Source: a virus
IMG/VR virus record: IMGVR_UViG_3300044612_002129
Coordinates: 1 to 36,145 of that record
DNA length: 36,145 nucleotides
Strand: one strand, 5' to 3'
Shown: piece by piece, positions 3,145 to 18,290 of the stretch
Layout of the letters: each line of letters opens with the position of its first letter
Position numbering within the stretch: the first letter of the stretch is position 1
The notes under the pieces: generated by a model
The model's input: the letters and a program-made list of their open reading frames with translations, nothing else
Database searches by the model: none
What the model was told of the DNA's origin: nothing
Program-made: the position numbers and the translations under genes

Positions 3145-4968
3145 GTGCCACGCGTAACCCAAGTATTCAGCCAAATCCCCTGGACAGGCGGACTTAACGA
3201 CTCAGTCGACAGCGGGCTGATCCCCGCTAACGACCTCGTGCAGGCCGATAACGTTCAGTTTGCTACTAACGGCTCGCGCCTGAAACGTGAGGGGTTAACG
3301 TACATCGACAAGGACTTGCCTACGGTCGTTAAACGTATATCGAGTGGCACAACACGTTCACTCGTATTCAACGCAGCGGTTACCACGGCTAGTAACAACT
3401 TCTTCCACGTAGGCGAGAAGATCACTGTTAGCGGTATAAACGTTAACTACAACGGTAATCAAACGGTCGCCTCAATTACTACTACCGACGTTACTAACGA
3501 TACGATTACATATACAGTTGTTGGAACATTTGCCGAAACAGTAATAGCCTCTTCAGCTACCGTCGTCCGCAATTACAAAATTATTGGTCTACACGACTAC
3601 TGGTACTTTGACTCTGGTAACAACATCAAGCAGCAGGAGCTTATAGCAGTTAGCTCACAAGCTGAAATGTACCGCTTTGATAGTAACGGCGACCGCATTT
3701 ACATCGCCAAGGATTCTGGCGCCACAGCTAACGCCGTCACACCCATCGAGCGTTGCGACATCATCACGTTTAACAACAAGTGCATCGTGACAGTTGAAGG
3801 CGTAGGCAATCTCCCACGCTTTTACGACGGCATGTCGACAGACGAATGGTTTGACCTGCCAAATGCCCCAGACGGGACGTTTATGCGCGAACACATCGGT
3901 CGCATCTTTATGAACGACAAGGCTGACAAAGATTATTTGCACTTCTCTGAAACGTTTGATGAGACGGTTTGGTTGGGTTTTGGTGATTCAGGCGCCTTGT
4001 ATGTAGGCATTGAGGATGGAGATCCGAAAGGCATCACTGGCATCGCGCCGCCGTTTAAGGGCATTCTTTTGATCTCTAAAGGCGAAAAAATCATCAAGCT
4101 AGTTGGCGACGCGCCCGAGACGTTCCAACTCGTCCCGATGACAAGCGGTCTTGGCGGCATTAACCACAAGGCAATGGTAGCTGTAGACTTCGATGATGTT
4201 TACTTTCTCTCGCGCCGAGGATTCCATTCAGCAGTTGCTACTGATACAGCTGGCGACTTCGAAGCTAACTTCCTAAGTAAGAAAATTCAGAATGAATTCA
4301 ATACTTGGAATAAAGCTAACCTTGACATGACTCAAGGTGTTTACATCGAGACGTTAAACTCGGTCGCCTGGGCTGTTACAGAAGACGGGGAGACCGGCCC
4401 TTCAGCCGTCTGGTTATACAACCCAACTATTAACGAGGGCGAGTGGTTCCGGTGGCCCGGTATAGCAGCTTACGCTTTAGGAAAGCGACTAGCCTCTAAC
4501 GAAGTACGCATGATTATCGGCACTGACGCAGGAAGAATCCTGCAGGCTCAAAATAATACCTACGCTGACAACGGTGGCTCGTATACATTTCGCATCAAAA
4601 CAGGCACCATTTACCCTGACGGTAATCCGCAGACGATCAAGGGTTTTAAGCGCATGAGCTTGTTGTTTAGACAGCGCGGTAGGTTTAGTTTTCAGGTAAT
4701 CTTTCGCGTCGATAACCAGGCTCCGCAAGCGTTTACTTTCGAGCAGACAATTGATGGTGATGAGTTAGGTGAAGATTTTATGCTTGGTTCTAGCATCCTA
4801 GGAAGCGAGACAATTATGGCTCCGGTTACCAAGCAAGTACTAGGCTACGGGCGCGGCTGCACTATAGAAGTGGCGCAAACGGGGCCAGAGTCACAAGTAG
4901 AGCTTTATGGCTACATGATAGAATACAAGGACGTTAGCTTAGCTGACGAAGTAAAGGAAGGTAATTAA
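3145..4968 (+). CDS. Tail / head-tail stabilisation protein (beta-propeller-like)
   Basis: The product is 607 residues. It starts at GTG, chosen because a GAGGTGA ribosome binding site sits a few bases upstream. The N-terminus (PWTGGLNDSVDSGLIPANDLV, then NGSRLKREG) is the opening found in a class of podovirus tail proteins that includes tail-tubular or stabilisation proteins. The rest is beta-rich with many aromatic and glycine positions and no membrane segment. It probably forms part of the short tail below the portal. It lies between two fibre-like genes and shares one base (TAATG) with the next gene, so translation is probably coupled. The tail role is fairly sure; the exact family is less so. 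Confidence 0.6.
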   Translation: MPRVTQVFSQIPWTGGLNDSVDSGLIPANDLVQADNVQFATNGSRLKREGLTYIDKDLPTVVKRISSGTTRSLVFNAAVTTASNNFFHVGEKITVSGINVNYNGNQTVASITTTDVTNDTITYTVVGTFAETVIASSATVVRNYKIIGLHDYWYFDSGNNIKQQELIAVSSQAEMYRFDSNGDRIYIAKDSGATANAVTPIERCDIITFNNKCIVTVEGVGNLPRFYDGMSTDEWFDLPNAPDGTFMREHIGRIFMNDKADKDYLHFSETFDETVWLGFGDSGALYVGIEDGDPKGITGIAPPFKGILLISKGEKIIKLVGDAPETFQLVPMTSGLGGINHKAMVAVDFDDVYFLSRRGFHSAVATDTAGDFEANFLSKKIQNEFNTWNKANLDMTQGVYIETLNSVAWAVTEDGETGPSAVWLYNPTINEGEWFRWPGIAAYALGKRLASNEVRMIIGTDAGRILQAQNNTYADNGGSYTFRIKTGTIYPDGNPQTIKGFKRMSLLFRQRGRFSFQVIFRVDNQAPQAFTFEQTIDGDELGEDFMLGSSILGSETIMAPVTKQVLGYGRGCTIEVAQTGPESQVELYGYMIEYKDVSLADEVKEGN

Positions 4969-6137
4969 TGGCAACTCTAGACGTACGTAGGCTATACGCT
5001 GACGGGGACATTCTTTTAGCGGCGGACCTTGATGCTTTCTTAGATGACATTGAAACGTTAATTAACGTTACAAAGTTAAATGACGATAACATTCAGAATA
5101 ACGGTATCACTGCTAGTGACAAGCTTATAGACGCGTCTATCACAGCGGCCAAGCTAGCTAGCAACTCGGTCATCACAGCTAAGATTCTTGATGCTAACGT
5201 AACAGCAGCTAAGCTGGCTACCGATAGCGTGGAGACTGCTAAAATAGTCAACCTAGCAGTCACTACAGGCAAAATAAACGACCTAGCTGTTACGACCGCA
5301 AAGATTAACGATCTAGCTGTTACTAACGCAAAAGTTGCTAACGGGACTCTTACAGCAGCTAAGTTTGCATTTTTACCTGAGCTAACAAAAGTCGACGTTA
5401 CAACAACCTGGGTTGTACCTTCAGGTATTGATAATATTTTAGTCGTAGGTGTGGGTGGTGGCGGCGGTGGCGGCGCAGGCGGTACTGACGGTAACTATAG
5501 CTCCGGCGGCGGCGGAGGTGGTGGCGGCGTTACAGGCATGGTTGCGGTAGCAGTTACTCCGGGCGAGACGTTAACTGCATCTTTAGGTACAGCAGGTAGT
5601 GGAGGCGCAGCTACTGGAGCTGCTACAGGACCTAGCGGCGGTAATGGCGGACAAACGACACTGAGCGGTGGATTTGGCGTTCTTAGATTTACAGGTGGTC
5701 TCGGCGGCTTAGGCGGTAACCAAAACACAGGCACGAGAGTTGGCGTAGCAGGCGGAGCCGGTGGCGTATCTAATGGAGGTATTCGTACAGCTGGCGGTGC
5801 TAGCGCCGACCAGCAGTCTATAACTGGAGGCACAGATGGCGACAACTCGCTATATGCTGCTGGAGGAGAATTTAACAACGGCAGCTCCGCAGGATCGGCA
5901 GGTACTGGCGGAGGCGGTGGAGGTGGCGGTGGTGGCTTAGCCGCTGGCGGTAACGGAGGCATCTGTGCATTCGGTACAGCTACAGGGTCACCGTCAGCTG
6001 CTGGTGCCGGAGTTGCAGGTACGCTAGGTTCAGGTGGCGGTGGCGGAGGCGGTGGCGCTAGCGGAGGCTCCATTGGAGCGGCTGGCGGCGCAGGCGGTGC
6101 AGGCCGCGTCTACGTCTACTACGTAAACCAGGCGTGA
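4968..6137 (+). CDS. Glycine-rich tail fibre / adhesin-like protein
   Basis: The product is 389 residues and its start overlaps the previous stop (TAATG) after an AAGGAAGG site. Residues about 1-45 are a short acidic head (DVRRLYADGDILLAADLDAF). Residues about 50-130 are pseudo-repeats of the ITAAKLA / VTTAKINDLAV type that often form fibre stalks. Residues about 150-385 are dominated by glycine, with several runs of seven to ten Gly separated by short loops, ending in GRVYVYYVNQA. Such Gly runs match the polyglycine-II sandwich adhesins of the T-even gp38 type, where the loops set host range. The structural parallel is inference from composition. A long proline-rich ORF on the other strand is only the mirror of these Gly codons. 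Confidence 0.68.
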   Translation: MATLDVRRLYADGDILLAADLDAFLDDIETLINVTKLNDDNIQNNGITASDKLIDASITAAKLASNSVITAKILDANVTAAKLATDSVETAKIVNLAVTTGKINDLAVTTAKINDLAVTNAKVANGTLTAAKFAFLPELTKVDVTTTWVVPSGIDNILVVGVGGGGGGGAGGTDGNYSSGGGGGGGGVTGMVAVAVTPGETLTASLGTAGSGGAATGAATGPSGGNGGQTTLSGGFGVLRFTGGLGGLGGNQNTGTRVGVAGGAGGVSNGGIRTAGGASADQQSITGGTDGDNSLYAAGGEFNNGSSAGSAGTGGGGGGGGGGLAAGGNGGICAFGTATGSPSAAGAGVAGTLGSGGGGGGGGASGGSIGAAGGAGGAGRVYVYYVNQA

Positions 6138-8139: not shown

Positions 8140-10344
8140 ATGAGCGCAGCAGAATTTGATGTTAATTCGTTTTTAAATGAAAAGTCTGCGGCGCCTGCCG
8201 CTGCTGGCAATTTTGATGTTGATGCTTTTTTAAACGATACGTCTCCTGTGGTTGATAAACCAACTTACGCTAACGGCGCATCGCCAACTCGTGCGTTAAA
8301 TCAACCAGCTCCTTCGATGACATCAGACCTGCGTGCGCAATTAGGTCGCGGTAACGAACGTGGCAAGTTTTCTAAACTAAAAGAATTGTACGGCGCTGAA
8401 AACGTTGCAGCAGCTAACGATGGCACGTTTAAAATTAAAGAAGGCGACGTTTGGTATCAAGTTGACCCTAACCTGGACGCTGTAGATCCGTGGAAAGCTA
8501 CTGCTGGTGTATTAGCCGGCGGAGCAGCTACGTTTGCTGGTTACGGCGCAGCCGGTGTAAACATCTTAGCTAACATGGTAACTGGTAAAGGTAACCTTTC
8601 AACCAATCCACAGCAGATTGCTGAAGGATTGCTAAACGAATTCCTACCTAAAGGCGAAGCACAAACGTTTGCAAAAGAGACGGTGTCAGAGCTTGGCGAG
8701 AATGAATCGTTGATCGCTACTACTGGAGCTAGCGTTGGCGTTGGCTTAGCTACTGGTGGCGCTAGCCTTATGGCTCAGGGCTTGGCACAGGGCGCCGTGG
8801 CGCTTGGCATGGAAGGCTCGCGCATTAGCATGGGCGCAGCCGAAGGTACTTACGATATTGACCCGGAAGAGTACGTAAAAGATTTAGCTACTGAGACTTT
8901 GTTTGCTGCTGGCGGAGCCGTGATTTTACCTGGTGTTCGACCGGGACTAAAGTGGCTTGCAGAATCTGGGGCAGCTAAAAAGCTTGGTGAACTAGCTAGT
9001 AAATTACCCGGCCCATCAAAAGAAGCTGTTTACAACGGCTGGGGCGCACTTACTCGCATGGGTGGAGAAACTACACAGCGAATTTTTGAGCGTGGTGATA
9101 AAGTTCAGCGGTGGGTTAACCAAGGTGCGGGCAAAACTACACAAGATGCAGTTGATACTTGGTCAAGACAAATTACAAGTAACGTAAGAAACATGGCTAG
9201 TGCTGCTACTGAAGCACGTACTGAGCTTTATAATAAAGGACAAGCATCGCTGCGCGCAGCTGCAAAAGCCGATACTAAAATTGATTTAAAAGCGCTAACT
9301 AATCCATTTATTGAAGATTTGCAAAACGCTGGTTTAGTAAAAGTAGCAGCTCGTAAGGGTGCCGCAATGCGAGGCGAATTTGTAGACGGCAAGTTTTTGT
9401 CTAAACAAGCAGGTATCGAACTTGATTTTGAATTAATACCTTACGAACAATTTAAAGCGCAGGCTATTAAATCGGGTGAGTTACCTGATCTAGCTTTCTC
9501 AGAAGAATCGTACAAAGGTTTACAAAAAATGTTTACTGAGGTGTCGGCTCTTCGAGATCCCGCACTTAGCAAAAAAACAGGGTTTGAAGCTGTTGAAAAT
9601 TTAGGTAAAGCTTCTAGAGTGCTTAGCGACATCACGCACGAACTTCGTGAAACTGGCATTGATAATAACCTTAATGTTCTGGAAAGGCTTGCAACTTCTG
9701 CAGACAGCAAATTTAGAAAGGGCGCCTTAGATGCATTAGGTGGCGAAGGATCTGAATTAGGGCGCGTGTTTGTAGCAAATAAAGAAGCTTACCGTACTTT
9801 TAAAAGTACTTTTGGGCCGCTTGAAAAAGCGGCATTAGCTGAGCAGCAAGGAAACAAGGAAGCTTTTGCTTCTTTAGGTCGAACCATTTCTGGCCGCACA
9901 AATAAAGCTGAAACACGTGGCGACCTTTTAAAGGGTATTCAATTTTTAAAAAATAACGGAATTAAATCTAGTGATAATTTGCAATATTTAGCTGATGACA
10001 TTGCTGATATTAATGCTGCTAGAAATCTAACTGAGTCTATTGATAAAGCGGGTCCTCGTCTTAAAACTGCCGGTCTTATGGCTGGCGGGGTCGGCGTAGC
10101 TAACCCCTTAGCGGGCGGGTTAATAGCAGGCGGCGCACTTGCTAGTGCTCCACAAATTCCAGCTGCAATGTCCCGTATTGGTTACGGCATGATGGATCTT
10201 GCGCGCGCTAACCCTGGAATGATGTCTAAACTCTTAATGAACCCTGCTACAGGCTCGCAAATTCCATTGATGTGGATACAGGCTGGTCAAGCTGAGCAGC
10301 AAACTAACGAGCTAATGATGTCTAGGATACCAGGAGCCCAATGA
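8140..10344 (+). CDS. Large internal virion / ejection-type protein
   Basis: The product is 734 residues. The N-terminus carries two copies of a short motif, FDVNSFLNE at residues 5-13 and FDVDAFLND at about 24-32; such repeats are common at the start of phage internal virion proteins and may be a scaffold- or partner-binding tag. A compact domain follows (RAQLGRGNERGKFSKLKELYG). Several Gly/Ala-rich hydrophobic segments come next (about 128-160, 195-220, 250-265), and another lies near the C-terminus (GLMAGGVGVANPLAGGLIAGG). The middle is long charged helix. This pattern suits a protein that inserts into or crosses the host envelope during DNA entry. No peptidoglycan-cleaving motif was seen. 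It ends one base before the next gene. Confidence 0.52.
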   Translation: MSAAEFDVNSFLNEKSAAPAAAGNFDVDAFLNDTSPVVDKPTYANGASPTRALNQPAPSMTSDLRAQLGRGNERGKFSKLKELYGAENVAAANDGTFKIKEGDVWYQVDPNLDAVDPWKATAGVLAGGAATFAGYGAAGVNILANMVTGKGNLSTNPQQIAEGLLNEFLPKGEAQTFAKETVSELGENESLIATTGASVGVGLATGGASLMAQGLAQGAVALGMEGSRISMGAAEGTYDIDPEEYVKDLATETLFAAGGAVILPGVRPGLKWLAESGAAKKLGELASKLPGPSKEAVYNGWGALTRMGGETTQRIFERGDKVQRWVNQGAGKTTQDAVDTWSRQITSNVRNMASAATEARTELYNKGQASLRAAAKADTKIDLKALTNPFIEDLQNAGLVKVAARKGAAMRGEFVDGKFLSKQAGIELDFELIPYEQFKAQAIKSGELPDLAFSEESYKGLQKMFTEVSALRDPALSKKTGFEAVENLGKASRVLSDITHELRETGIDNNLNVLERLATSADSKFRKGALDALGGEGSELGRVFVANKEAYRTFKSTFGPLEKAALAEQQGNKEAFASLGRTISGRTNKAETRGDLLKGIQFLKNNGIKSSDNLQYLADDIADINAARNLTESIDKAGPRLKTAGLMAGGVGVANPLAGGLIAGGALASAPQIPAAMSRIGYGMMDLARANPGMMSKLLMNPATGSQIPLMWIQAGQAEQQTNELMMSRIPGAQ

Positions 10345-13688: not shown

Positions 13689-13895
13689 CTAACCCCTTCT
13701 TTTAATTGTTACAGGTTGATTACGTTCTAACATTTCCTTAAGCGCCTCCATAAAAAGCTTTTTAATTGCTTTTTTAATTATCCTCCGTTTTTTAGATTTG
13801 ACCCCTGTTATACGCCGCATCTCCGTTAACAAGTCAGCTGGCAATACAATAGAGCCATGCTCATTAACAGTTAATGTCCAGACCTTACTCTTCAC
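13689..13895 (-). CDS. Small basic protein with possible AbrB-like N-terminus
   Basis: The product is 68 residues, with a GTG start coupled to the recombinase stop by a 4-base GTGA overlap and a GGGAG site. Residues 4-25 (KVWTLTVNEHGSIVLPADLL) resemble the swapped-hairpin start of SpoVT/AbrB-like DNA-binding proteins, with the G-x-I-V-L-P turn. The rest is very basic helix (KSKKRRIIKKAIKKLF). A small DNA-binding protein directly downstream of a recombinase could be an excisionase or regulator. That is inference; the AbrB likeness rests on about 20 residues. Confidence 0.45.
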   Translation of the reverse strand: MKSKVWTLTVNEHGSIVLPADLLTEMRRITGVKSKKRRIIKKAIKKLFMEALKEMLERNQPVTIKRRG

Positions 13896-14596
13896 ACGCT
13901 AACTCCCTCTTTTAATTTTGCAGCCAGGCTGGCTGTGTTAGTTGCGGTTACATATAAACTTGCAGTCTGCATCGAATTCCAACCGAACATCGCAAGTAGC
14001 TCAGCCTCGCGGGCGCCCAGCTCCACTGCGCGCGTAGCAGCTAGTTTGCGTAAGCTGTGAGGCGTTAGCCCCAAGGGCTTTAGCGCACGACGCAATTGGT
14101 GAGCGACGATCTTAACCTCGGGCGCATTGTGGACTTGTCGACTCTTGTTGCCTTTACCCACAACTATACCCATAGATACCCGATTAGCCTCAGAGATGCG
14201 TAGCCCACTAGACAATAGTGCAAATGCTTGGGCTGCCATCTCAGGTGTTAACTCAGCGCGGATACGTGTAACGGCTTCGCCGAACGTTAGCTGCGGCCTT
14301 TTAGGTGTATAAGCATTCTTAAAAAGCCTAGCATTGTCGCACATAAACTGGGAGAACTTGTTTTCCTGGTTAGGCCAACCGAAGCCAGCTAGCTGGGCGG
14401 CTCGAATGAATAGAGTCTTAATCGTATACGCCATATATCCGCCATTTACACAGTGGCGGAAAAACCCTGCCGGATCGTTTGGCAGGTATTCTTCGGGGAT
14501 GCTGGCAAGTCTACTAGCCTCTGACTTGTAGCTAGCGTAGCTCCAGGCGTTTTCTTTAGAGGCTAAGTATCTTTGTTTAAGCGTTTGTGTCTTCAT
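13892..14596 (-). CDS. Tyrosine recombinase (integrase family)
   Basis: The product is 234 residues, short for the family. Residues 1-100 are a helical core-binding domain. Residues 105-230 are the catalytic domain. Arg133 lies in SSGLRISEANR, a Lys in GKGNKSR (148-151), His180 and Arg183 in HSLRK, Trp206 in FGWNS in place of the second His, and the nucleophile Tyr215 in SLYVTATN. All catalytic positions are present at normal spacing. It could integrate the phage, resolve multimers or invert DNA. The ribosome binding site is weak. Upstream are two GTATAC palindromes, a terminator-like hairpin and the tandem noncoding repeats, so its expression may be controlled by that leader. Confidence 0.85.
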   Translation of the reverse strand: MKTQTLKQRYLASKENAWSYASYKSEASRLASIPEEYLPNDPAGFFRHCVNGGYMAYTIKTLFIRAAQLAGFGWPNQENKFSQFMCDNARLFKNAYTPKRPQLTFGEAVTRIRAELTPEMAAQAFALLSSGLRISEANRVSMGIVVGKGNKSRQVHNAPEVKIVAHQLRRALKPLGLTPHSLRKLAATRAVELGAREAELLAMFGWNSMQTASLYVTATNTASLAAKLKEGVSV

Positions 14597-14598
14597 AG

Positions 14599-14625
14599 GT
14601 ATACATTAGCTCGCTTTTTGTATAC
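14599..14625. promoter_or_regulatory. Paired GTATAC palindromes upstream of the recombinase
   Basis: GTATAC occurs at 14599-14604 and 14620-14625, with 21 bases from one start to the next, i.e. two helical turns, so both face the same side of the DNA. The first begins three bases upstream of the recombinase ATG. Same-face palindromes here suit a dimeric repressor or recombinase accessory site. The sites are seen; function is inferred. Confidence 0.35.
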
Positions 14626-14646
14626 TTGCAAGTGTTAAACTAAAAC

Positions 14647-14671
14647 GCCCCGTTTTGGCAACACACGGGGC
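14647..14671 (-). terminator. Terminator-like hairpin just before the recombinase gene
   Basis: GCCCCGT (14647-14653) and ACGGGGC (14665-14671) form a perfect 7-bp stem with an 11-base loop. On the - strand the stem is followed by GTTTTAGTTT, a short U-tract, so it could end leftward RNA coming from the noncoding repeats about 50 bases before the recombinase start. The U-tract is only moderate, so termination may be partial or regulated. Confidence 0.5.
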
Positions 14672-14724
14672 CACGTGTATAGAAGCAAGCCAAACTCACC
14701 ACTTAAACAGGCAGGTGACGCCTA

Positions 14725-14924
14725 GGCGGGCCGCTAGCGACTTCGGCCATGTGCTTACTGTGGTTCAAGTTTGCTCGTCGGTAACAAACCGAATCTTGCG
14801 CCCCGATAACCCACTTATTCAGCACCGAATATTGTCTTCATCTGCGTGTCTCCAATGGCAGCGGCTGACCCAACTCCTGTTGGCTCCCGTTCACACCACA
14901 GCTTCCACGCCTCCGCCCAAAACT
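14725..14924 (-). ncRNA. Tandem structured RNA candidate, copy A
   Basis: This is a 200-base element sharing conserved blocks with copy B: block 1 at 14725-14771 (46 of 47 bases identical), block 2/3 at 14803-14853 (47 of 51), block 4 at 14901-14924 (24 of 24). The ends pair (GGCGG with CCGCC). Block 1 contains a GGCCG/CGGCC hairpin with a 10-base loop. Variable insert 1 forms TCGGT-aacaa-ACCGA and insert 2 forms CCAAC-tcct-GTTGG. On the - strand block 3 holds GGAGA, then 7 bases, then ATG opening the 8-codon ORF MKTIFGAE (14815-14841). The strand is uncertain; - is preferred because the flanking genes and terminators run that way. Confidence 0.5.
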
Positions 14925-14938
14925 AACTAATAAAAAAA

Positions 14939-15168
14939 TGGGCGGGCCGCTCGCGACTTCGGCCATGTGCTTACTGTGGTTCAAGTTAGCGCGGACATTT
15001 CTGCCCTCTATCCTCACGGCTATACTTTAAGCGACTACTGTCTGACTATCATCGCTCTAACCGATTACCCACTCGTTCGGCACCGAATATTGTCTTCATC
15101 TGCGTGTCTCCCAAGCTACTCCGCATTATCAGTTACGGTGCTTTGCTTCCACGCCTCCGCCCAAAACT
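14939..15168 (-). ncRNA. Tandem structured RNA candidate, copy B
   Basis: This second copy has block 1 at 14941-14987, block 2/3 at 15061-15111 and block 4 at 15145-15168. TGGGCGG (14939-14945) pairs with CCGCCCA (15157-15163), closing the whole element. On the - strand the closing helix is followed directly by seven U (14932-14938), as in an intrinsic terminator. Insert 1 is longer than in copy A (73 against 31 bases) and forms AGCGA/TCGCT. Insert 2 forms AAGC/GCTT enclosing CCG/CGG. These differ in sequence from copy A but occupy the same places. The - strand mini-ORF is MKTIFGAERVGNRLER (15049-15099). It starts about a dozen bases downstream (in - orientation) of the holin-like gene stop. 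Confidence 0.5.
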
Positions 15169-15180
15169 CACTTCGTTCGT

Positions 15181-15570
15181 CTATGCCTGTTTAATAGTCA
15201 AGGCTGCCTTAATAAGCTTTGTAGCCTTATCAAGAGCCTCTGCCTGTACCTGCTGCTCAGCGCGAACACCTTCTAGTCCGTTAGCCAAGTAGTCAGTTTT
15301 CAATGTTAGCTCGTCAACTTGACTAACCCCATCACCTGGCGCGGGCGGCGCTTCCGACGCGGCTTTAGCCGAGTCGTCCCCGACAGACATACCCTTCCAG
15401 CTAACTAAAGCATTGGCTCCAGAAAAGATGCCGACAATGCCAACTAGCAGCATGACATACGACTCAGACAGCCCTCCAGGCTTTACAAACTCAATTACAG
15501 TACCTAGTAGGACCGTTAGTAGCGACATAAACGCTTTACGGCCACCCATGGCTTCAATTAATCTTTGCAT
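15181..15570 (-). CDS. Holin-like protein with two membrane segments
   Basis: The product is 129 residues, starting at ATG after GGAG. It begins with an amphipathic MQRLIEAMGGRKAF, then two transmembrane helices at about 14-30 (FMSLLTVLLGTVIEFV) and 38-58 (YVMLLVGIVGIFSGANALVSW). An Ala/Pro-rich linker and a C-terminal coiled coil (NGLEGVRAEQQVQAEALDKA) follow. The MGGRKAF...LL opening and two-helix layout are common among phage holin-like membrane proteins. It overlaps the upstream gene by 17 bases. It is the last gene before the noncoding tandem repeats. Holin function is inferred. Confidence 0.5.
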   Translation of the reverse strand: MQRLIEAMGGRKAFMSLLTVLLGTVIEFVKPGGLSESYVMLLVGIVGIFSGANALVSWKGMSVGDDSAKAASEAPPAPGDGVSQVDELTLKTDYLANGLEGVRAEQQVQAEALDKATKLIKAALTIKQA

Positions 15571-17138: not shown

Positions 17139-18290
17139 TTATACCTTGCCTGGTCTAATTTTGTAGCCTGGATATGGTGACTTTAAAAACTTGGCTTCCA
17201 AGATCGTCCCGTCTTTAAACTTTACCTTCTTAACTTGTCGCCCACTGTCAGGCAGCATCAACTTTAGCAAGTTTTGCTCGATGTTGTCAACATCTTTCTC
17301 AAGTTTTTTCAAGGCCGCGTACTCAGCGTAAACTGCCTCTAGCTCGTCACCACGTTGGCCAAGGTAACTCGTATCTGTAGCCCACTTCTTATCCGGCAGC
17401 GTTTGGAAGAATTCCTTCTTAGTGTCGATTTCGGGCCAACACGATTCTTTAAATCGGCAGAAGGCACATGACATGGAGCCAAGCACCTCTGTACGGTCGA
17501 CCGTTTCTGGCCCCGCCCCTGAGTAGATAGCATCGGCAACTAGCTGGAATTTAGCATTCACTTTATCTGCCAGGTTTTGTGAACAGCGCCAGCGAATTTC
17601 CCTGAGCTTACTATTAGCCTTATTATACTGTAAAAGAAACGCGTATTCAATACCGCGTGCCTGCATAAAATCAGTCATCGCGTAACCGTTAAGCTGACAC
17701 ACGTTAGAAGTGATTGAGCTATCGTTTAGTTCTTTTAGAAAAGCTTCGACATCGTCAGCGTAGTAAGCATTCTCGCCGATACGCTTTAGCGCGCGCATCT
17801 TTTGGTACTTAGCATCGTCGTCCTCCCAAGAACTTGCGTAGCCACCTGACCACTTAACGCCTTTCGACTTCACATCTCCGATCATGGCATAGTCATCAAA
17901 GACAACTACGAAATCGACTGAGCCCTCAATGATCTTACCGCTTGGCAATTCACAGAAAGTAACTACCTGCTGCTGGTACTTAATCTGAAAAATTCCGCAG
18001 CGCTTCATCATGTTAAGTACGTGGCGTTCGATGTCGTGCCCAAAATCCAAAAGGCGAATAGTATGAGCTTCTTTTACTTCTGGTGGATATTTGGCGTGAC
18101 CTTCATGTTCGTGTAATTCGTAAGCTAAAGCGCGCGCACACTTGCCAGACGCAGACGGGCGCAAAGGGTAGCCCCAAGATTTGCCGGCGTCTTGCTCCTC
18201 TTGCTGTTTGTTAAGTAGCGCAGCATCAAATAGATCAATGATGCCAACCTCTGGCGGTCTAGCGCTTTGGTTGTGTTTGTTCGACGACAC
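17139..18290 (-). CDS. PD-(D/E)XK exonuclease with Cas4/AddB-like Fe-S cysteines
   Basis: The product is 383 residues, starting at GTG right after GGAGG. It has the RecB/Cas4 nuclease motifs in order: RPSASGKCARALAYEL (residues 44-59), GSVDFVVVFDDYAMIGDVKSKG with Asp126 and Asp139-x-Lys141, and QLNGYAMTDF (Gln199, Tyr203). Cys51 upstream plus Cys275, Cys278 and Cys284 (CAFCRFKESCW) give the one-plus-three cysteine layout that holds a 4Fe-4S cluster in Cas4 and AddB. It probably resects DNA ends for recombination or digests host DNA. It overlaps the preceding small gene by 32 bases and sits in the polymerase/RuvC segment. Confidence 0.8.
   Translation of the reverse strand: MSSNKHNQSARPPEVGIIDLFDAALLNKQQEEQDAGKSWGYPLRPSASGKCARALAYELHEHEGHAKYPPEVKEAHTIRLLDFGHDIERHVLNMMKRCGIFQIKYQQQVVTFCELPSGKIIEGSVDFVVVFDDYAMIGDVKSKGVKWSGGYASSWEDDDAKYQKMRALKRIGENAYYADDVEAFLKELNDSSITSNVCQLNGYAMTDFMQARGIEYAFLLQYNKANSKLREIRWRCSQNLADKVNAKFQLVADAIYSGAGPETVDRTEVLGSMSCAFCRFKESCWPEIDTKKEFFQTLPDKKWATDTSYLGQRGDELEAVYAEYAALKKLEKDVDNIEQNLLKLMLPDSGRQVKKVKFKDGTILEAKFLKSPYPGYKIRPGKV

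Follow-up and report, generated by a model that had tools for sequence, protein, structure and literature searches.

Two tandem copies of an element that is almost certainly a structured RNA are encoded on the minus strand of the window, the whole 36,145-base stretch of IMG/VR virus record IMGVR_UViG_3300044612_002129 that was analysed. Using pattern scans and a covariance model, the element was found in 11 other uncultured phage records, yielding 13 full members and three diverged copies, with sizes of 123-298 nt. Selection acts on the RNA itself, since the core is highly conserved while neighbours, peripheral arms and closing-helix letters all vary. From these sequences the RNA appears, somewhat more probably than not, to act in trans as a free non-coding RNA.

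The common fold is closed by helix P1 (5-8 bp), which joins both ends of the RNA. The P2 arm consists of GCGUG/CACGC followed by a variable stem. The P3 arm consists, in order, of GNGC/GCNC, an internal loop GAAnnn/AGUAA, GWGG/CCWC, an internal loop GUAAUC/UUGAA and a second variable stem. P4 is a hairpin with the conserved loop RGUMGCG and stem letters that vary freely. The two variable arms are unconstrained in length and sequence.

Tandem copies in the window

A repeat search reproduced the duplication described in the initial annotation. The blocks occur in the same order in both copies: positions 14725-14777 and 14941-14993 are 94% identical over 53 nt (46/47 in the first 47), 14803-14853 and 15061-15111 are identical at 47 of 51 positions, and 14901-14928 and 15145-15172 at 27 of 28 (24/24 in the first 24). 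The inserts between the blocks measure 31 against 73 nt and 47 against 33 nt, as had been claimed, and the ends of the copies pair, TGGGCGG with CCGCCCA in copy B and GGCGG with CCGCC in copy A. The AAAACT that ended the blocks as originally quoted falls outside the fold. No strand had been given; the RNA strand of both copies is minus (Table 1). A third copy is absent elsewhere in the window. Chance origin of the repeat is excluded, because the duplication spans about 125 conserved nucleotides and 11 other records contain the same blocks. Single-sequence folding energies of the window copies (minus strand z -0.3 and -0.8; plus strand z -1.5 and 0) did not reveal the structure, which emerged from comparative evidence.

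Table 1. Positions of the two RNA copies, their parts and their neighbours in the window
Feature	Positions	Strand	Remarks
RNA copy B, 5' of copy A on its strand	14940-15162	-	P1 to P1' spans 223 nt; model R1 score 118.4 bits, as a training sequence
Copy B P1 5' strand, GGGCGG	15157-15162	-	Pairs with CCGCCC at 14940-14945
Copy B P2 5' strand, GCGUG	15150-15154	-	Pairs with CACGC at 15102-15106; closes variable arm 1
Copy B core block, CACGCAG AUGA AGACAAUAUUCGGUGCCGAACGAGUGGGUAAUC	15063-15106	-	P2 3' strand, junction and P3 5' strands
Copy B UUGAACCACAGUAAGCACAUG (P3 3' strands) and P4 hairpin GCCGA-AGUCGCGA-GCGGC	14946-14984	-	
T-run (7 T), terminator-like, directly 3' of copy B P1'	14932-14938	-	Read from the sequence
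RNA copy A, 3' of copy B on its strand	14724-14918	-	195 nt; 117.6 bits to model R1, as a training sequence
Copy A P1 5' strand, GGGCGG	14913-14918	-	Pairs with CCGCCU at 14724-14729
Copy A core block, UGGAGACACGCAG AUGA AGACAAUAUUCGGUGCUGAAUAAGUGGGUUAUC	14805-14854	-	Conserved
Copy A UUGAACCACAGUAAGCACAUG and P4 hairpin GCCGA-AGUCGCUA-GCGGC	14730-14768	-	
Hairpin GCCCCGU...ACGGGGC then GUUUUAG, in the gap separating copy A from the recombinase	14640-14671	-	Read from the sequence; under the T-run threshold of the scanner
Tyrosine recombinase, neighbour outside the element	13892-14596	-	PF00589, E 6e-6; phrog_1
129-aa ORF, neighbour outside the element	15181-15570	-	Ends 18 nt before copy B; no family found

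Homologous loci

DNA patterns of the conserved blocks were scanned over the viral collection and GTDB genomes, and each match was read individually. The patterns were exact, and the member set is thus biased toward the conserved core. Real members were L007 (record G001), L010 (G002), L012 (G003), L017 (G004), L019 (G005), L020 (G006), L021 (G007), L022 (G008), L024 (G009), L025 (G010) and L046 (G011). Second-type copies, in which P1, P2 and P4 are retained and a different sequence replaces P3, were L019b, directly after L019, and, both in G006, L020b directly after L020 and L042 elsewhere. The element-bearing records range from 12 to 157 kb and their gene content is otherwise different. After L019b lies a third short element (approximately 5728-5812, minus strand), closed by GCGGCA/UGCCGC and followed by CTTTTATTT; it is possibly a mini-copy or another RNA of the same array. 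Inside L022 the core segment AGACAAUAUU is partly tandem-duplicated (approximately 9122-9170, minus strand).

Covariance model R1 was built from 11 members, with L021 withheld. The initial annotation had proposed a covariance-model search; with R1 it recovered L021 at 95.2 bits (E ~1e-20). Second-type L019b scored 29.3 bits, and L046, found later by pattern, scored 29.7 bits as a whole and 46.9 bits for its 3' part; its P2 (GUGCG/CGCAC) adds fresh compensatory changes. The model scored nothing in the five unrelated loci searched and gave no match in Myxococcus phage Mx1 or Manatee Spring phage. INPHARED was searched by blastn with the window, L017, L020 and L042 copies, yielding chance matches only and no member.

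Several pattern matches were rejected. A 19/19 match in Mx1 lies inside a CDS, in a record where the model finds nothing. The sole match in the GTDB scan was a chance match in an archaeal coding sequence, the exact pattern being one that could miss divergent copies. L008, L009, L011, L013-L016, L018 and L023 were read from the sequence as chance matches, and four of these rejected loci were searched with R1 without a match. No host could be assigned, the best relative of the terminase being that of an uncultured Manatee Spring phage, at 35%.

Secondary structure and covariation

Variable arms were trimmed ahead of alignment, and all pairing counts refer to the core only. From 12 core sequences RNAalifold proposed P1, P2, P3, P3', P3b and P4, with compensatory change in 18 of 30 pairs. 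Across 13 members 95.0% of 377 cells were paired and 21 of 29 pairs changed on both sides, in 73 cells compared with 19.5 in shuffles. The covariation measure was 0.566 compared with 0.171, and none of 500 shuffles reached any of these measures. Sliding the partners by 1-3 columns reduced pairing to 30-44%, and every slid register failed. In an all-against-all scan of column pairs, for which no structure was given, the helix pairs ranked top. Since kinship among sequences can outscore shuffles, a tree-aware null was generated by simulating 300 alignments on a FastTree tree with the substitutions per branch kept. The covariation test proposed earlier was run against this null using our own code approximating R-scape; five column pairs reached E<0.05, all five inside the fold.

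The same is seen helix by helix. All 8 alignment pairs of P1 have changes on both sides in the 13 members, the helix being GGGCGG/CCGCCC in the window, UGUGACAG/CUGUCACA in L007, GAGACCA/UGGUCUC in L019, GCCGGG/CCCGGC in L021 and UUGAGCAG/CUGCUCAA in L025. P2 is 100% paired in 13 members, with compensatory change in 3 of 5 pairs, and P4 has compensatory change in 4 of 5. The middle pair of GNGC/GCNC in P3 is UA in six members, AU in five, CG in one and GC in one, both sides changing in step, and P3' reads GUGG/CCAC in L046 and the window copies and GAGG/CCUC in the other members. Rather than drifting without compensatory pairing, P1, P2, P3 and P4 change on both sides among relatives and stay paired, which supports the original reading of a structured RNA not described before, whose core is fixed and whose stems vary.

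The minimum-energy fold of L021 alone (123 nt) is the consensus (z -2.8). Its reverse complement folds about as well (z -3.1), so the strand cannot be read from energy. A suggestive small hairpin, P2.5 (GNN/NYC before GG), forms perfectly in L021 and in the AGAGA members, with U-U mismatches left in the others. By its letters, AGUA facing GAA in P3 resembles the bulged-G (sarcin-ricin or loop E) motif. L025 (approximately 1981-2095) and L046 (approximately 3322-3435) have a near-identical P3 variable arm (AAUGUAGGGCU..AGGGCCUGAG...GUGGCUAGGACUAAACCACUACC) in members that are otherwise different; this arm is perhaps a peripheral domain exchanged between phages.

Comparison with known RNAs

At the gathering threshold, none of the 4227 models of Rfam 15 matched the window or the 11 homologous loci. 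At E up to 10 the window and L020 gave no match, L007 gave one chance match and L021 two on the other strand. The earlier statement that no named family fits is borne out, and the lack of an Rfam match at the thresholds used sets the element apart from each RNA considered below. The pRNA of phi29-like phages lies at the genome end and serves packaging. Both it and the element are small phage junction RNAs of similar length, but the genome positions of the element vary.

GOLLD is also a structured phage or prophage RNA whose function is unknown, and it too has a conserved core beside parts that are conserved less (PMC2864571, PMC12286853), and ROOL is also phage-encoded, with an elaborate fold and no known protein partner (PMC12286853). 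Many GOLLD RNAs are longer than 800 nt and located near tRNA islands, and ROOL is highly complex, with multiple pseudoknots, and often near tRNA islands too (PMC12286853). The element, unlike GOLLD, has the shorter lengths given above and a different fold, and no tRNA was found in the window. The STAXI motif likewise forms tandem repeats near ssb and integrase genes, but is mainly a repeated pseudoknot (PMC2864571), whereas the element has nested helices closed by P1. HK022 put (PMC9378689) and EAR/epsC RNA (PMC2864571) similarly lie within operon transcripts and act via conserved stems; they are cis-acting antiterminators, whereas P1 of the element closes beside a U-run.

In the open-access papers searched, GOLLD, ROOL, STAXI and put were comparable and none was recognisable as the element. 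The RNA family is new, at the level of structure, within a wider kind, phage non-coding RNA of unknown function, that is already known. Few such phage RNAs are known (GOLLD, ROOL, pRNA), and function is lacking for most. The natural L021 member, at 123 nt, has a size suited to probing and structural studies.

Genomic context

Several of the gene names given here were read from translations. In three records the element is flanked by SSB-like and helicase-primase genes, two records have it in the portal-scaffold-capsid region and two ahead of a recombinase, and elsewhere it precedes a spanin-like lipoprotein or follows an IMPDH-like gene. It is mostly co-oriented with the surrounding genes; L010 is followed by opposite-strand ORFs. 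No shared class unites the downstream genes, which are of helicase-primase, endonuclease-like, spanin-like, recombinase or capsid-region type, and L010 has none nearby. The search for a partner protein shared across the 12 records brought up only general phage proteins (PolA, ClpP-like proteases, portal, tail), none of which occurs in every record.

The initial annotation had offered duplicated recombination sites for the adjacent tyrosine recombinase as an alternative. A recombinase domain (PF00589) was found in 2 of 12 element-bearing records, several of which are fragments, and was not detected in G001, G002, G005, G006 and G010 (54-157 kb). With such varied neighbours and no constant linkage, an attachment or crossover site was rejected as the general role, and a metabolite riboswitch of a single pathway is disfavoured.

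ClpP-like proteases are encoded in G001, G002, G005, G006, G009, G010 and G011, with more than one in G005 and G006. In G001 the minus-strand frame that starts at reverse position ~2849 of L049 encodes a 703-aa ribonucleotide-reductase-like protein with an apparent small intein (CLHPLTKVL...ALANGIMTGNC). In the window, a 383-aa protein (17139-18290, minus strand) matches the Cas4-domain exonuclease PHROGs phrog_1990 and phrog_1706. Between the recombinase and copy A (14598-14640), GTATAC is repeated and the palindrome-like ACTTGCAAGT occurs, a possible recombinase operator or attachment site.

Transcription signals and proposed function

Of 16 copies, 11 carry TTTT in the 9 nt that follow P1', compared with none of 16 on the other strand (background 3.8%; p ~1e-12). 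Copy A has no T-run directly 3' of P1', and the hairpin between it and the recombinase is a possible terminator of a putative copy A transcript. In six members the best sigma-70-like promoter stops 5-6 nt short of P1, with good sites in L046 (TTGACA-17-TATTCT-6 nt-P1), L022 (TTGACA-17-CATACT-5) and L007 (TTGACT-17-TATTCT-6) and fair ones in L012 (TTGAAG-16-TATAAC-6), L019 and L021. The pooled p was ~1e-8 with locus positions as the background and 3e-6 with shuffles, in a test framed after L022 and L007 had been viewed, L046 being added later. No recognisable sigma-70 promoter was found upstream of the window copies, which may be co-transcribed with the gene ending 18 nt upstream. Judging from these signals, which are present in part of the family, the element is probably a promoter-RNA-terminator gene of 120-300 nt; for the window copies we infer as much by extension.

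As a trans-acting RNA the element would be made as its own unit, with RNA polymerase starting at the first base of P1. It would fold during synthesis, P1 closing last, and the U-run directly after P1 would end and release the transcript once P1 had closed. In trans, the invariant internal loops together with the loop of P4 would bind a phage or host partner, most likely a protein or ribonucleoprotein, while the two variable arms would stay peripheral. Because the second-type copies keep P1, P2 and P4 with P3 replaced, P1-P2-P4 looks like a chassis and P3 like the specificity part. A bolder proposal, which we advance tentatively, is that of an exchangeable-chassis RNA class in several phage lineages: with P1, P2 and P4 fixed and P3 and the two peripheral arms swapped, it might serve as a trans-acting RNA or ribonucleoprotein scaffold against or within host machinery, its closing helix being a folding-dependent terminator.

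The main rival is a cis-acting attenuator, in which a riboswitch-like leader would use P1 and the U-run as a fold-dependent terminator and a ligand or phage protein would decide read-through to the next gene. In seven copies (L012, L017, L020b, L024, L025, L042, L046) a start codon, mostly with a ribosome-binding-site-like motif, follows within about 30 nt of the T-run directly after P1'. With no room left for another promoter, the genes there can be reached only by read-through, an arrangement compatible with a leader and equally with a free RNA. The genes upstream also often end no more than 30 nt away, and tandem copies are usual among riboswitches. However, the downstream genes are unrelated, where a riboswitch would have a consistent class, some copies precede only another copy, and simple reading of the sequences brought no alternative antiterminator pairing to notice. 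We consider such a leader rather unlikely, though far from negligible.

By analogy with HK022 put or EAR, the nascent RNA might instead bind polymerase in cis and alter downstream pausing and termination; HK022 putRNA alone changes downstream termination (PMC9378689). Like these, the element lies in phage operons on the strand of the genes, is sometimes tandem and has highly conserved loops, but it ends in a terminator-like signal itself and its placement extends beyond operon starts, which makes antitermination improbable.

Marginally more improbable still is a DNA-level site for recombination, replication or packaging, folded in single-stranded form. The element adjoins a tyrosine recombinase in the window, is near one in G011 and lies beside SSB-like genes in three records. 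Against this stand the few records with a recombinase, the strand-specific T-runs, the excess of G-U over A-C on the RNA strand (14 to 4, a weak signal), and a P1 that lacks the conserved sequence which a protein-recognised site needs.

A duplicated protein-coding remnant or decayed mobile element, to which the tandem duplication in one genome and a 91-aa plus-strand ORF covering copy A might point, is scarcely conceivable: every member has stops in all three RNA-strand frames, no open frame is common to the family, and the compensatory changes in the helices refute it through covariation across 12 records.
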